Shown here: one piece after another, positions 10,092 through 16,586 of the stretch
Layout of the letters: every line of letters begins with the position of its first letter
Position numbering within the stretch: position 1 is the first letter of the stretch
Origin: a virus
IMG/VR virus record: IMGVR_UViG_3300045541_000213
Location: 1-29,499 of that record
Strand: one strand, 5' to 3'
DNA length: 29,499 nucleotides
Notes under the pieces: model-generated
Told to the model about the DNA's origin: nothing
Seen by the model: the letters and a program-made list of their open reading frames with translations, nothing else
The model's database searches: none
Position numbers and translations under genes: made by a program

Positions 10092-12536
10092 TTATGGGTT
10101 TTTCACTTTTGGAGGCAACATATTCGGTCCTGTAAATTTTGTGTCATCACTAACTGTAGTAGTGCTTCCCTCTTGTTGAACATTTGTAGTATGATGAAAA
10201 TAGATATCCTGCTTTGCAGGCATCATTGAATTACTTGTAGTACCTGATTGCGTACCATAATTAGATCCAGCTGAATTTTTAGCTGCATTGCCTGAAACTG
10301 TGATAGGACCTGCTAAATCTAAACCTCTAATATAATCTCCGCCTGATTTTGCTGACTCAATTATACTTTCGTCTATGTCTACTCCTGGAAGTAGATTAGC
10401 CAATTCCATTATACCAGCAGCTACAGATCCCATTATATCAAATAGAGTTGCAAACACACTTTGTATTTTAACTACTATAGCAGTTATGTTTTCTGGTTTG
10501 CTTAGGAACTCCATAGCTTTATCTATCAATCCAACTATAGGAGAGCTAGATAGGAATGTGGCAACAGCTGATTGTATTTTATCTAAAAAACCTGCTATCT
10601 TCTCCTGAGTAGAAGCATTTGTCATGTTTATGTAGGCTTCTTCCCCGATCTTTTTTACGATTTCCTCTCTAGTTTTACCTTCAGCTTTCATTGCCTCAAC
10701 CTTTGCTTGAGCGTCTTTAAGATCTTTAGCTCCTAATTTAGTAAGCATTTCTTGCTGTTTAAGCATATCAGCCATTTCATTTTTAGACATGCCCATCGCA
10801 CCAGCTATTGCGTCTTGCTGGATACGATTCATATTTAGGAACTCAGAAGCAGTGCCTACTTGTTTTGTTATTTCTTGTGCGGCTGTAGCAAGGTCGTTAT
10901 TTAGAAATGCTTCACGAGCTTTAGCAAGATTAATGTCTTTACCAGTTAAAAGTTGTGCTTCAAATTCTTTTGATATTGATGATTCAAAATCTAAGAAAGA
11001 ATCAGCCATAGAATCCAGTTTAGAAAGTTCTAAACCTAAAGACTTAGTTGTGACTAACGCTTTAGTTAACTTTTCTGGATATTTAGCAAACTGTAAACCT
11101 AAAACCCCGCCTAGTGAAGAAGCTTCTGCTAGAATTTTTTGATAATTGAAGCTTATTCCTGTTGCGGCTTTTAGAGCTCCTACTTGACCTAAAACAGATT
11201 CTGTTATAGCCTTAGAGGATTGTCCAGTTATAATACTGGATTGCGCTATAGATGCTCTGGTTTTAGCATCTAATCCTGCTAACTTTCCTAACTCTATATT
11301 CGTGGTTAATATTTCACCACTAAGAACGTTTGTAACTCCTAATTCATTAGATAATTCTTTTTGAGATTCTAACAAACCTCTAGAACTTATTAAAGCCTTT
11401 CCAGAATTATTTGCAATTCTATTGAATTGTTCGCTTATTTTACCCGCTTCCGTTCTTGAAACTCCTAGTTCTCGACCTATTTTAGTGATCTTATCGTCTT
11501 CTTGTAAAGAAAGATTCAAAATAGTCGTGAATCCATCTACAAGACCTGATAAAAGTCCCCCAACAAAAGGTATCTTAGAAACTAAATCTGAAACTCCTTT
11601 TCCTAATTTAGAGATTACTTGATCTCCTGTCATTGACATAAAATCAGAAATTCCTGTTGCGGCACTTCTAGCTACATCTCCTAACTTAGTTAATCCAGCT
11701 TGAGCTGCTTTATAAATTCCAATTATTCCTGCTGCAATAGCCGCAGGATCTTTTTTTAATTTATCTACATATTCATATAAAGAGTCCATAGCGCTTCCCC
11801 AAAGAATGGTAGCTTTTTCAGAAAGCGTTAATTCTTTATTAGCATCTCTAGATCTTTCTACTATCTTTTCATAGAACTTATTTCCTATGCCTAATTTATC
11901 TGCAAAAGTTTTTGCTAAATATCCACTTACACCTATACTATCGTTTATTCTTTTCTCTTCAATTCGTTGTTTTTCTAAACGGGTTAAGATCTCTTGGTTG
12001 AGCTCTTCAGTCTTTTTTGCTTGGGCGTATTCTAGAGCTTTTAAACCTATGTCTTCTTTTTCACGCTCTATAAATGATTCTAAAGCGTTAAGTTCATTTT
12101 GTTTTGCTCTTGCTATATCTGTATAACCTAAAGCAATATTTTCATTTAGTTCTTTTTGTAATTTTTGTTGCTTCTCTATTGCTTTGTTAAAATCTAAACC
12201 CCTATTTTTTTGAGTTTCTGAAATTTCTTTTTCTAAATCTGCTAGCTTTTTTGTGTTTGTAAAAGATTTTTCTGTTGTAGTCTTTATTTGAGCTTCTACT
12301 TCTTTTATGTTTATAGCAGACTTATTTATGGAAGCTAATTTTGCTTCCATTTTATCGTAATTTTTTAAAGTGGCTTGTAATTCTTTTATAGAGTCTTTTA
12401 CTATATCTCTATAATCACCTTGTAGCTTAAGTATTTCTTTTAAAGAATCCTTAAGTTCTTGAGCAGACTTTTGTGTCTGCGTAGAACCTTGAGGTTGATT
12501 TAGACCTGGACCAGTATTTTGATTTTCGTTAGCCAT
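10092..12536 (-). CDS. Tail tape measure protein
   Basis: The 814-residue protein has the expected build. A long charged helical/coiled-coil region (about 20-235, rich in Lys, Glu and Gln) comes first. Hydrophobic glycine/alanine-rich segments follow (AAIAAGIIGIYKAA, VGGLLSGLVDGFTTIL and, near the C-terminus, SVFATLFDIMGSVAAGIMELA). A polar Ser/Thr/Asn tail ends the protein. Tape measure proteins span the tail lumen, set its length and help deliver DNA. The gene directly follows the gp26/gp51-like pair, the usual position after tail assembly chaperone genes. An ATATTTAT motif lies 20 bases before the ATG and there is no Shine-Dalgarno. By length alone it would specify a tail of roughly 120 nm at 1.5 angstrom per residue; that is a rule-of-thumb estimate. 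Confidence 0.8.
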   Translation of the reverse strand: MANENQNTGPGLNQPQGSTQTQKSAQELKDSLKEILKLQGDYRDIVKDSIKELQATLKNYDKMEAKLASINKSAINIKEVEAQIKTTTEKSFTNTKKLADLEKEISETQKNRGLDFNKAIEKQQKLQKELNENIALGYTDIARAKQNELNALESFIEREKEDIGLKALEYAQAKKTEELNQEILTRLEKQRIEEKRINDSIGVSGYLAKTFADKLGIGNKFYEKIVERSRDANKELTLSEKATILWGSAMDSLYEYVDKLKKDPAAIAAGIIGIYKAAQAGLTKLGDVARSAATGISDFMSMTGDQVISKLGKGVSDLVSKIPFVGGLLSGLVDGFTTILNLSLQEDDKITKIGRELGVSRTEAGKISEQFNRIANNSGKALISSRGLLESQKELSNELGVTNVLSGEILTTNIELGKLAGLDAKTRASIAQSSIITGQSSKAITESVLGQVGALKAATGISFNYQKILAEASSLGGVLGLQFAKYPEKLTKALVTTKSLGLELSKLDSMADSFLDFESSISKEFEAQLLTGKDINLAKAREAFLNNDLATAAQEITKQVGTASEFLNMNRIQQDAIAGAMGMSKNEMADMLKQQEMLTKLGAKDLKDAQAKVEAMKAEGKTREEIVKKIGEEAYINMTNASTQEKIAGFLDKIQSAVATFLSSSPIVGLIDKAMEFLSKPENITAIVVKIQSVFATLFDIMGSVAAGIMELANLLPGVDIDESIIESAKSGGDYIRGLDLAGPITVSGNAAKNSAGSNYGTQSGTTSNSMMPAKQDIYFHHTTNVQQEGSTTTVSDDTKFTGPNMLPPKVKNP

Positions 12537-12564: not shown

Positions 12565-12822
12565 TTACTTTCTGGATTTTACTTTAGAAACAAACGCAGG
12601 CTTTTCCTGATTTGTTTTTACAAAATCTGGCAACTTTATTGACTTGGGATCGGTGTTTTCTGTGACCTTCTGTTGGTTCTTATTCTTTAATTCTTCAACC
12701 TTTTCAAGATATTCATTAATTTTACGCAGATTGAACTTCCTCTTTGGGACGTCCATGTTCCAAACCTCAGAATAGGTGAATCCTCCCCCACCGTGGTAGG
12801 TGAGCTCAAACACCTCAGTCAT
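12565..12822 (-). CDS. gp51-like small tail assembly protein, possibly the second half of a frameshifted chaperone
   Basis: The 85-residue protein starts MTEVFELTYHGGGGF and contains YSEVWNMDVPKRKFNLRKIN, followed by a charged Lys/Asn-rich tail. The aromatic-plus-helix pattern (W-x-M-x-V-P-x-R-x-F) resembles small gp51-type proteins next to gp26 in T4-like phages; T4 genes 26 and 51 are also adjacent. The ATG lies 19 bases after the gp26-like stop. Its frame stays open upstream of the ATG, through the end of the gp26-like gene, to a TGA at 12870-12868. It could therefore also be made as a C-terminal extension of that protein by a +1 or -2 frameshift. A weak AGG lies 9 bases before the ATG, so independent initiation is also possible. 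Confidence 0.65.
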   Translation of the reverse strand: MTEVFELTYHGGGGFTYSEVWNMDVPKRKFNLRKINEYLEKVEELKNKNQQKVTENTDPKSIKLPDFVKTNQEKPAFVSKVKSRK

Positions 12823-12841
12823 GAAAACCGACCTGTATTCC

Positions 12842-12867
12842 TTACCCGGGAAAAAAGAAATCCGCTG
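12842..12867 (-). other. Candidate programmed ribosomal frameshift site between gp26-like and gp51-like genes
   Basis: In the last codons of the gp26-like gene the coding strand reads TTC TTT TTT CCC GGG TAA. The gp51-like frame (+1 relative) is open from 12867 onward, so the two frames overlap by about 8 codons ending at the stop. A +1 slip on CCC/CCG or GGG/GGT, or a -2 slip on the T run, would read through as ...FFPGKEYRSVFMTEV and give a fusion of about 344 residues. Tail assembly chaperones upstream of tape measure genes are commonly expressed this way (lambda G/GT). The site is seen; its use is inferred. Confidence 0.45.
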
Positions 12868-13600
12868 TCATCGGCAGCGCAGTGGACACCTCCGTACCGT
12901 CCTTTAGGGTAAAGGTGACGTTAGTATCTATATCTGGGGTTATGGATTCTATGTATTTACGTAACTCAACAGAATCCCTTGAAAGTAGGTAGCCTTGATC
13001 AATAAAATCACGGACTGTTTTTACAGAGTATTCTCCGTTAATAGCTACTATCTGATGTTTTAATCTTGTTGATAGGGCTCCGGCTTCTTGACCTACAGTC
13101 TTCTTCATGCCTTTGATCTCCTCATCAATCTTCTTATCTAGAGCTATTGTAAGCAACTTAAACGTAACAGAATTTTTAGAATGAGGCAATACATACTCAA
13201 ACTCATTTCTATTGTCTAATAGCGCCCAATTAACCTCTTTATACTTAAGATTTTGTAGATCTACTGTTACCCTTTCCTCTTCTCCTGTGTTAGGATTTCT
13301 GTAAGAGAAAACGTAATCTTTTCCATAAGCCAGTATCCTGGCTGCTATTAGAAGACCATTACGATCACCTAATATTAGGTCTTCGTATTTGATTGGTGAT
13401 TTAATCAGCGAAATTAGAACCTTTTCTATGGCCAAACCCTGACGCAGCAGGTTGACATTAGTTAAGATGTCCTCTTCTCTAGCAGTCATGTATTTCATTT
13501 CTACTTGACCTGATGCTAGTGGATTTTCTTTTGGATAAACTAGACCTTTAGAAGGTAGGTCGATTAGTTCTGTAGGAACCGTAAACTTTTGATCTGACAT
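12842..13600 (-). CDS. T4 gp26-like baseplate/tail assembly protein
   Basis: The 252-residue protein begins with VPTELIDLPSKGLVYP (8-23) and continues with VEMKYMTAREEDILTN, LLRQGLAIEKVLISLI and LGDRNGLLIAARILAYGKDY. This is the pattern of the T4 gp26-type family (annotated T4 bacteriophage base plate protein), whose members are thought to act in hub and tail assembly. The second half is mixed alpha/beta with an Asp/Lys-rich segment and ends in FFFPG. The gene follows a terminator, has an ATATTTAT motif 15 bases upstream and no Shine-Dalgarno (AAACGTTTTATG). Together with the gp51-like gene it takes the tail assembly chaperone position just before the tape measure. Its end overlaps a possible frameshift site. 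Confidence 0.75.
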   Translation of the reverse strand: MSDQKFTVPTELIDLPSKGLVYPKENPLASGQVEMKYMTAREEDILTNVNLLRQGLAIEKVLISLIKSPIKYEDLILGDRNGLLIAARILAYGKDYVFSYRNPNTGEEERVTVDLQNLKYKEVNWALLDNRNEFEYVLPHSKNSVTFKLLTIALDKKIDEEIKGMKKTVGQEAGALSTRLKHQIVAINGEYSVKTVRDFIDQGYLLSRDSVELRKYIESITPDIDTNVTFTLKDGTEVSTALPMTADFFFPG

Positions 13601-13696: not shown

Positions 13697-14182
13697 TCAG
13701 TAGTTCAGGACACAGTAATCCATTGCCACAGTCAAACTGATTTCTGTTGGTGCAGAAGTAGACCAGTCGTAGCTACCGAAATTAGTGTCTTTAACAAAAG
13801 CACCTTTCAGAATCCACTCAGATACCACATCACCTACAGGACCAAGAATAGACAGGTTAATGTCTTTCTTATAAAAGTCAGAATAACCATCACGGCCTGT
13901 TACAGACTCGTGAGAAAGGCGTACCCATTCCATCACAGCCTGTTGACCAGATGGAGAGATCGGGTTATAAAGTGAAAGCACCATGTCTCTCCAGAGTGCC
14001 TTACCTTTGATCTTACGATACACGTTGATGTGATCTAATTTGATTTCATCTAGTGTTACACCAGGAGCATCCGCCTTTTTGATCATGTAAGAAGGAATAC
14101 CATCTATGTACATGATAAATCGGTTCGATACTGTGGGCTCGAACGCTGTGAACATTATTTCATTGGGATCCAGTACTGGCAT
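13697..14182 (-). CDS. Tail tube protein, gp19-like
   Basis: The 161-residue protein fits the T4 gp19 tail tube family in size (T4 gp19 is 163) and pattern: an N-terminal segment with EPTVSNRFIMYIDGIPSYMIKKADAPG (positions 14-40), a central ALWRDMVLSLYNPI and WVRLSHESVTGRDGYSDFYKKD region, and a C-terminal strand EISLTVAMDYCVLNY. Tube proteins stack as hexameric rings around the tape measure inside the sheath. The gene lies near the sheath gene, separated by one Lys/Glu-rich gene. It has its own ATATTTAT motif 25 bases upstream and a terminator downstream, so it is probably made as a single-gene transcript at high level. It is richer in G+C than the baseplate genes, as expected of a highly expressed structural gene. 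Confidence 0.9.
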   Translation of the reverse strand: MPVLDPNEIMFTAFEPTVSNRFIMYIDGIPSYMIKKADAPGVTLDEIKLDHINVYRKIKGKALWRDMVLSLYNPISPSGQQAVMEWVRLSHESVTGRDGYSDFYKKDINLSILGPVGDVVSEWILKGAFVKDTNFGSYDWSTSAPTEISLTVAMDYCVLNY

Positions 14183-14825: not shown

Positions 14826-16586
14826 TTATTGACCGAATGAAGTACCTGTAGGCAGGATGTTGAAGTCAAGCTGGATAAATTCAGCAGTCTTTGTAGGCTG
14901 CAAGTAAATTGTACCAACCAACTGGTTACGATCCACTACATCAGGCGTGTTGTTAGTTTCGTCCATCACTACCTGGAAGGAGTACAAGCCTTGACGCTGT
15001 TGTACGGATTCCAAATAAGGATTAACTTGATTGAGAAACTTATTGCGAGTAACTTGAGTGTTAGGCTCGAATACGATGTTCTCACCGATTTGACCGATGT
15101 AGTCCTTAAGAGCTATCAACAAGCGACGCACGTTAACACGATCGAGAGCAGAAGGCTTCTGTTGAAGAGTCTTCTGACCGTAGATCACAGTGCCAACACC
15201 AGGGAATGTAGCAATAGGATTAACTTTACCTTGATAGAGTATATTACGGTCATTGACTGTAAGCTTACGCTCAGGCTGCAGCACTGTAGAGAGTGAACCG
15301 CGGTTCAAACCAGCAGGTGCAAACCACTCGGCAGACACTCTGTCGTTGTATTCGTATACTGCTGGTACAAGAGTAGAAGCAGGTACGAAGTTTACTTTGC
15401 CAGTCTCACGGCTGCGGACTTGAATCCAAGGCCAGTATGTGGCTGCATAAGAGTTATCGTAGCTTATAGCTCTGTTAATTACTGTGCTAACTTGCTGTCC
15501 GTATCCTACCATATCAACCACAGCTATGGAGTCTCCTCTATTTTGCGCCAGATTAATAATAGAGTTTACTTGAGATGGTGCATTTTGAGAAGTCAAACCA
15601 GGAGCATAGATCACATTGAATCCGTATGCGTCTTGATTCTCAAGCAGAGAAATCGCTGTGTTATAGTCTGCTGCAAGAAGACCTTGTACATTGCTTCCAC
15701 TTATATTTGCAGTTGTCACAGGAATGTTTTCAAACATATTTAGTGCTGATTCATTAATGCAACCATACAAAGCGCCAACTGCACCTCCGAATGATCCATT
15801 AACGGATCCTGAGCCTAATTTAGGCATAAGATTAGTGTAAGCAGTCTGTGCTACTCCAACCTGATTAAAGTAATTAGGGGTTGGTGAAGGCACAGAAGAT
15901 ACTCTTACATATTTAGATGCATTAGCATAGGATCCAGTAATTTGAATATACTTACCTGTCGTGGAATCTGTAGCAATGGTTTCTTTTTGATCACCTATTA
16001 CATAAGCGATATAATTATTCTGATTAGGATCTAGTGAAAGACCATTCCAAGTTTCAAGAATAGTCTTGCTATTATTGTAGTCATCACCTCGACGGATAAC
16101 TAAGTTAAAAACTCCAGAACCAGTGTCTACGGCAGTTATCTCCCAACGAATATTAGCTGCAGAACCAGAAGGCAGAGATCCATTTGATCCTGAAGACCAG
16201 TCTCCACTATTATTCATTACGTCACCTTGAGAAAGTGTCTCAAGTACAAATGCAGTAGATCCTCCACTAATACTACCTACAGAAGCTGTTGCAGAGGTAT
16301 AAGAACCTGAAGTGACCCTAGTCACCAATAGAGATTGACCTCCCTGCTCAAAGTAGTTAAGAGCAGCGATGGAAGTCAAATACTCATAAGTAGCACCGCC
16401 AGAAATAAAAGACGCTCCGAAGATCGCCTTATATTGTGAATATGTGGTTACTACTGTTGGGATGTTTACCGGTCCTGTTACTGTAGGGCCTAAAAGAGCA
16501 GCTCCTACTGTGATCGGTCCCTGTGTTATCTGTGAGAGGTCATTTTCTTGTAAGAAGACCCCTGGGCTAATAAGTGTTTCGGCCAT
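14826..16586 (-). CDS. Contractile tail sheath protein
   Basis: The 586-residue protein has the sheath family ends. The N-terminus has a conserved start (ETLISPGVFLQENDLSQ, 3-19) followed by GPITVGAALLGPTVTGPVN. The C-terminal domain has ALDRVNVRRLLIALKDYI, FEPNTQVTRNKFLNQVNPYL and the final QPTKTAEFIQLDFNILPTG, typical of phage_sheath proteins. The middle (about 110-300) is a Ser/Gly/Thr-rich, more AT-rich insertion that probably forms surface domains. Sheath subunits surround the tube and contract to drive it into the cell. Size is between T4 gp18 (659) and small sheaths. The gene has an ATATTTAT motif 21 bases upstream and no Shine-Dalgarno (ACTTACATAAATG). Confidence 0.92.
   Translation of the reverse strand: MAETLISPGVFLQENDLSQITQGPITVGAALLGPTVTGPVNIPTVVTTYSQYKAIFGASFISGGATYEYLTSIAALNYFEQGGQSLLVTRVTSGSYTSATASVGSISGGSTAFVLETLSQGDVMNNSGDWSSGSNGSLPSGSAANIRWEITAVDTGSGVFNLVIRRGDDYNNSKTILETWNGLSLDPNQNNYIAYVIGDQKETIATDSTTGKYIQITGSYANASKYVRVSSVPSPTPNYFNQVGVAQTAYTNLMPKLGSGSVNGSFGGAVGALYGCINESALNMFENIPVTTANISGSNVQGLLAADYNTAISLLENQDAYGFNVIYAPGLTSQNAPSQVNSIINLAQNRGDSIAVVDMVGYGQQVSTVINRAISYDNSYAATYWPWIQVRSRETGKVNFVPASTLVPAVYEYNDRVSAEWFAPAGLNRGSLSTVLQPERKLTVNDRNILYQGKVNPIATFPGVGTVIYGQKTLQQKPSALDRVNVRRLLIALKDYIGQIGENIVFEPNTQVTRNKFLNQVNPYLESVQQRQGLYSFQVVMDETNNTPDVVDRNQLVGTIYLQPTKTAEFIQLDFNILPTGTSFGQ

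Follow-up and report, generated by a model that had tools for sequence, protein, structure and literature searches.

According to PMC5009743, frameshifting of the G/GT type is widely conserved among phages with long tails, 'except T4', and T4-like phages were later described as relying on something else. For the T4-like phages, citing papers credit Vladimirov et al. (2022) with identifying gp26 and gp51 as the tail chaperone genes, and one of them (PMC12846349) cites that study for poly-T −1 signals. Another, PMC10885494, states that in place of a frameshift some T4-like phages possess a short gene together with a longer fusion gene. On this account, neither the role of gp26/gp51 nor, probably, the −1 sites are new. 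Shifts in the +1 direction are documented in other settings. Listeria phage PSA uses the sites CCC_UGA and CCC_UCC (PMC5009743), and PA-X of influenza A is produced by an experimentally established +1 slip on UUU_C within UCC_UUU_CGU, from which the authors predicted a class of such sites (PMC3498833). In the literature searched, we found no report of a +1 route in the gp26/gp51 family.

The phage described here is related to T4 in its tail genes and, as judged from the comparison of its sequence with those of its relatives, almost certainly makes the longer form of its tail chaperone by skipping a single base. T4 obtains the same two proteins from two separate genes, and cyanophages and KVP40 appear, from their sequences, to reach the same tail by shifting −1 at Phe-Phe codons in the equivalent place. 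Of this system, the tail chaperone role of gp26 and gp51 had already been published, and what is new is the variation by a +1 shift.

The gp26-like gene and the frame behind it

The window, by which we mean the whole 29,499-nucleotide stretch that was analysed, is a linear virus DNA of 29.5 kb with 36.8% G+C. Its tail genes lie on the minus strand (Table 1) in the order sheath, tube, gp26-like gene, tail ORF and 814-aa ORF, and the identical order is found in L001, L004 and L006. The gp26-like gene and the tail ORF are placed directly upstream of the likely tape measure gene and behind the tail tube gene. The gp26-like ORF matches PF12322 (T4_baseplate) with an E-value of 9.4e-8 and 32.4 bits (gathering score 24.5), and phrog_150 with an E-value of 1.4e-11.

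The gp26-like ORF ends in the codons GCG GAT TTC TTT TTT CCC GGG TAA, and the downstream ORF lies in the +1 frame relative to it. As the preliminary description had observed, the downstream frame is already open across the end of the upstream gene, from 23 nt before the TAA through 277 nt after it. When CCCG is read as one step, the predicted fusion has 344 aa, in agreement with the length of about 344 residues given earlier, and reads ...ADFFF-PGKEYRSVF-MTEVF... across the junction.

We regard it as very probable, from the sequence comparisons set out below, that the long form of the tail assembly chaperone arises at this junction through programmed +1 frameshifting of the ribosome. The majority of ribosomes would terminate at the TAA and release the short gp26-like form. 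In the remainder, the P-site tRNA-Phe would slip by +1 at UUU_C with CCC as the next codon, re-pairing from UUU to UUC (or to UUU in relatives), and these ribosomes would read on in the +1 frame as ...FFF-PGKEYRSVFMTEVF..., adding a tail of 94 residues. If the two forms act as lambda G and GT do, the tape measure protein would probably be coated by the short form, and tube subunits would be recruited by the tail. We infer the skipped base, the frequency of shifting and the chaperone role, the last from homology and gene position.

Table 1. Features of the tail gene region of the window, with positions numbered from the first letter of the window
Feature	Position	Strand	Basis or remark
Tail sheath	14826-16586	-	
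Tail tube protein, upstream neighbour	13697..14182	-	phrog_4542, E 4.9e-23
Putative short tail assembly chaperone (G-like), 252-aa, gp26-like	12842..13600	-	stop TAA 12842-12844
Full run TTTTTTCCCGGG	12845..12856	-	one copy in the whole 29.5-kb record
Inferred shift tetranucleotide TTT_C (mRNA UUU_C), P-site tRNA-Phe UUU to UUC	12850..12853	-	
CCC, rare Pro codon, in the A-site at the predicted shift	12848..12850	-	
Predicted +1 extension, putative T-like domain, 94 codons and stop, PGKEYRSVFMTEVFELTYHGGGGFTYSEVWNMDVPKRKFNLRKI...	12565..12849	-	fusion translation; selection; profile match
ATG called as a separate start	12820..12822	-	Lys in the L087 clade; AT-poor upstream context
Downstream ORF, 85 codons	ATG 12822 to stop ending 12565	-	
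814-aa ORF, likely tape measure protein	10092..12536	-	position; annotation in L001, L004, L006

Conservation of the +1 frame and of the putative slip site

Relatives were gathered in five IMG/VR scans (the best 80 matches per query) and from phage records. These yielded at least 344 loci with a usable junction, at least 245 of them distinct over 180 nt; the sequences are related, so junction counts do not amount to counts of independent events. The nearest isolates are the Flavobacterium phages immuto (49% identity), Microcystis phage Mel-JY01 and an uncultured jumbo phage, and more remote ones are Bacillus SP-15, Listeria LIS04 and Streptococcus GXN1. A search of reference genomes recovered no relative. 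Records of 126-188 kb carry a single gp26-like copy, and a second gp51-like copy was not found in eight further records, four of which are 126-188 kb long.

The +1 frame extends more than 50 codons beyond the stop in 238 of the 245 distinct junctions among the matches listed, and a comparably long −1 frame is present in 7 of the same 245. Inside gp26-like ORFs, a background that is itself coding-shaped, the +1 frame is open for at least 50 codons at 0.24% of positions. Among the matches listed, stops within 60 codons of the slip site occur in the +1 frame of 2/85 and 2/152 junctions and in the −1 frame of 84/85 and 150/152. The frame-0 stop lies 1, 2, 3 or 5 codons past the slip codon in one class of junctions (class I, defined below) and 3 to 6 codons past it in the other (class II), and the +1 frame remains open while the position of this stop shifts among relatives. 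Stops in the overlap of relatives had been named beforehand as evidence that would speak against a fusion; the relatives' overlaps are without them.

The record of Mel-JY01 lists the tail (L002:4749-4985), which overlaps the gp26-like gene, as a hypothetical protein of its own; it is probably the tail of a fusion. In the 595-kb jumbo phage record LR756511 (L007:4657-4926), the gp26-like protein has a longer C-terminus, and the tail ORF behind it uses the −1 frame and overlaps at a TAATG.

At the slip site, all 239 junctions with a +1 extension among the matches listed contain an in-frame TTT followed by T or C, which corresponds to the UUU_C type of +1 site proposed earlier (PMC3498833). The background frequency of such a tetranucleotide is 5.3% of the other 12-codon stretches in the same ORFs. 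The junctions fall into two classes. Class I, comprising the window and L087 clades, has TTT CCC followed mostly by GGG and otherwise by TAG, TAA, TCC, AGT or AGG. Among the matches listed, CCC is present in 84/87 class I junctions, compared with 7.7% of the Pro codons elsewhere in these ORFs, and GGG in 72/87, compared with a background of 7.2%. Class II, made up of the Immuto and Mel-JY01 types, has TTT TTT TGG CCT, TTT CTT TGG CCT, TTT CTA TGG CCT, TTC TTT TGG CCT and a few others.

A +1 slip could also take place at CCC_G, or at GGG_U beside the stop, as a variant of +1 shifting that gives an identical product. CCC is nearly invariant in the window's clade, and it is the +1 shift codon in Listeria phage PSA and E. 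coli pheL (PMC5009743). However, class II, which accounts for 152/245 junctions among the matches listed, has kept TTT-Y with no CCC at the site, and in class I the CCC and GGG codons could owe their conservation to the fact that both frames encode Pro-Gly there. We therefore consider slippage at CCC_G or GGG_U unlikely, though by no means negligible, and prefer UUU_C as the shift site. The preliminary description had proposed to look for a run of T, C and G in the relatives. Its T portion is retained, with 6-9 T in most relatives, but CCC is confined to two sister clades, one of them the window's, and GGG is dispensable, as seen in sites such as TTT CCC TAG, TTT CCC TAA and TTT CCC TCC.

We also looked for a stimulatory structure. 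In the window's clade, 10/32 site variants have a 6-bp hairpin 4 nt past the CCC, with paired silent changes, but the window's own junction has no such hairpin (z +0.93), a point that, like its ATG in the +1 frame, weighs against a programmed shift. Because it is absent from the window and present in only these 10 variants, the hairpin does not belong to the general mechanism. Where it occurs (L324 and others), it has the form GCGGAC-UAUAG-GUCCGC with the frame-0 UAG at the loop, and changes from G-C to C-G and from C-G to U-A keep the pairing.

Codon differences between relatives were compared over the 9 codons that separate the slip site from the place where the window has its ATG, and over 18 codons in the class II clades. 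In the window's clade, the normalised nonsynonymous/synonymous ratio is 0.09 in the +1 frame, 2.58 in frame 0 and 2.53 in the −1 frame. The +1 value is 0.06 in the L087 clade, which is without the ATG, and 0.21 and 0.17 in two other clades. Because amino-acid changes are suppressed only in the +1 frame, the protein under selection starts at the slip site and not at the ATG. Comparison of the relatives shows that selection maintains the fused +1 frame beginning at the slip site.

These results bear directly on whether the locus contains two separate genes, the second being translated from the ATG at 12822 through coupled re-initiation once ribosomes have terminated at the TAA, so that no fusion arises. 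The ATG is present in the window and its clade, and four loci discussed below have a stand-alone ORF with its own start. However, the +1 frame is already under selection before the ATG is reached, and 111/234 classed junctions among the matches listed contain neither ATG nor GTG nor TTG within the extension's first 21 codons. The conserved part of the extension, EYR..F.Q.HEIVFHG.GG, falls within these 21 codons, and in the 111 junctions without a start codon the domain can therefore be made only by a shift. The window's Met is replaced by Lys throughout the L087 clade, which is sister to the window's clade. The upstream context of the ATG is also unlike that of real starts: A+T is 51% in the 20 nt before it, compared with 89% before the gp26-like starts of the same phages. 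Two separate genes are thus very improbable, and the ATG is most likely, from these comparisons, an internal Met codon of the fusion.

The preliminary description had left open two directions of slippage, +1 on CCC/GGG and −2 on TTT TTT. A −2 slip would enter the same frame and add one extra Phe, and −2 shifting is known in the tail genes of phage Mu. Among the matches listed, −2 re-pairing is possible in 190/239 junctions, including the window's, but impossible in the other 49/239, which have TTT CTT TGG, TTT CTA TGG, TTC TTT TGG, TTC TTT CCC or TTC TTT CGT. Re-pairing after a +1 slip is possible in all 239, so a −2 slip would call for two mechanisms where one suffices. Of the two directions we retain +1, and give −2 as poor a chance as separate genes. 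Least probable of all is slippage of RNA polymerase on the T run to give shifted mRNAs, since, although most relatives have runs of 6-9 T, the +1 frame is retained even in 38 junctions among the matches listed whose final 12 codons hold no T run longer than 3.

Loci with uncoupled reading frames

In four loci (L077, L352, L285 and L290), the two frames have come apart. All four have a changed site, and each has a stand-alone tail ORF. The sites read TTC TTC TTC CCA in L352, TTT TTC TTC CCA in L077, TTC TTG TAT CCT in L285 and TTC CTT TGG CCA in L290; no TTT is left in L352, L285 or L290, and L077 keeps one TTT-T but has lost TTT CCC. When L077 is compared with the coupled locus L070, 9 of the final 10 codons are silently different with the residues identical, although elsewhere in the gene the codons for an unchanged residue are identical in 69% of cases. 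The four loci probably represent three separate events. Since the two ORFs are uncoupled in them, the fusion cannot be required in every phage. What separates the gp26-like gene from the tail ORF in L077 is an inserted ORF (L077:4741-5328) that is GIY-YIG endonuclease-like by its sequence motif and is placed precisely at the boundary of the two.

The uncoupled loci provide natural examples of the loss of the shift for comparison, and the +1 site itself is simple. The results also suggest a correction to annotation, in that the short ORFs behind gp26-like genes, which are often called hypothetical, are probably the tails of fusions.

Relationship to the chaperones of T4, cyanophages and other phages

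T4 gp26 and gp51, known as hub assembly chaperones, both match the entire PF12322 profile (E 8.8e-64 and 3.9e-52), and gp51 consists of a gp26-like domain with about 48 residues more. Because they are two genes, and on opposite strands, T4 makes no frameshift fusion. S-PM2, P-SSM2, HTVC008M and phiM12 each have a single gp26-like gene followed by an out-of-frame stretch that corresponds to the tail part of phrog_150 and lies at −1 over T TTT TTC or T TTT TTT. KVP40, phiW-14 and Atu_ph07 have a similar −1 arrangement. In all these phages (L098:2160-2372, L099:2130-2369, L101, L102, L103, L104 and L106), the tail ORF is in the −1 frame over U_UUU_UUY at the Phe-Phe codons used in the window.

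A profile of the +1 tails matches the −1 tails of S-PM2, P-SSM2, HTVC008M and KVP40 with E-values of 1e-4 to 2e-4, and hhalign of the +1 tails against the −1 tails gives 96.9% over 49 columns (E 1.7e-10). A profile of the −1 tails built without T4 in turn matches residues 206-248 of gp51 (E 1.4e-7) and does not match gp26. There is no direct profile match between the window's tail and gp51 (the phrog_150 tail), and the hmmscan match of the window's fusion to phrog_150 ends at position 239 of 282; the link between the window's tail and gp51 therefore needs the −1 tails as intermediates. A search of solved structures with the fusion returned only chance matches to antibodies. RM378 and the SP-15 group also have the tail in the +1 frame, a weaker case with few sequences.

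From these profile matches, the short form is the counterpart of gp26, the fusion is the counterpart of gp51 and the downstream ORF corresponds to the tail of gp51 only. The earlier designation of the downstream ORF as gp51-like cannot be kept, since the C-terminal tail is the only part of gp51 to which the ORF's family is related. The preliminary description was correct that genes 26 and 51 are separate in T4, but it is the fusion, and not the downstream ORF, that is equivalent to gp51. Its broader proposal, that the gp26/gp51 system of T4 is connected with the G/GT strategy of lambda, holds because the fusion is the gp51 counterpart, the chaperone role in T4 having been published previously according to the citing papers. 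The T4-type chaperone family itself appears to use a +1 frameshift, in hundreds of environmental phages.

As in the G/GT type, the long form in the window would come from a shifted, overlapping frame that is kept in relatives. In contrast to lambda, where the shift is −1, the shift in the window would be +1 and the protein family is PF12322 (T4 gp26-like). The window shares with T4 a short form that belongs, like gp26, to PF12322, and gp51 is a PF12322 domain with a tail related to the frameshift-encoded one; the difference is that T4 has two genes, whereas one locus in the window would give both forms. PSA resembles the window in a +1 shift involving CCC in phage structural genes, and the window's relatives have CCC UAG, CCC UAA and CCC UCC, but the PSA shift serves capsid and tail shaft proteins and not a tail chaperone. 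The slip in PA-X is likewise at UUU_C in the P-site, and phage GXN1 (L005) carries TTC TTT CGT; PA-X, however, is an unrelated protein of a eukaryotic virus, and the A-site codon in the window's family is mostly CCC or UGG.

The cyanophage type (S-PM2, P-SSM2, HTVC008M, KVP40, phiM12 and phiW-14) has the same tail domain, out of frame behind a gp26-like gene, but reached by −1 over U_UUU_UUC or U_UUU_UUU and not, as in the window, by +1 over UUU_Y. On balance, we favor the view that this homologous family has shared Phe-Phe codons near the end of the gp26-like gene at which the direction of shifting has flipped in evolution. Cyanophages, KVP40 and others would shift −1 (U_UUU_UUC), whereas the window's large clade, Immutovirus, Mel-JY01, RM378 and the SP-15 group would shift +1 (UUU_Y), with T4 using a second gene; the +1 members would then make up a large set of naturally occurring bacterial UUU_Y +1 sites that have no stop codon or hairpin in common.
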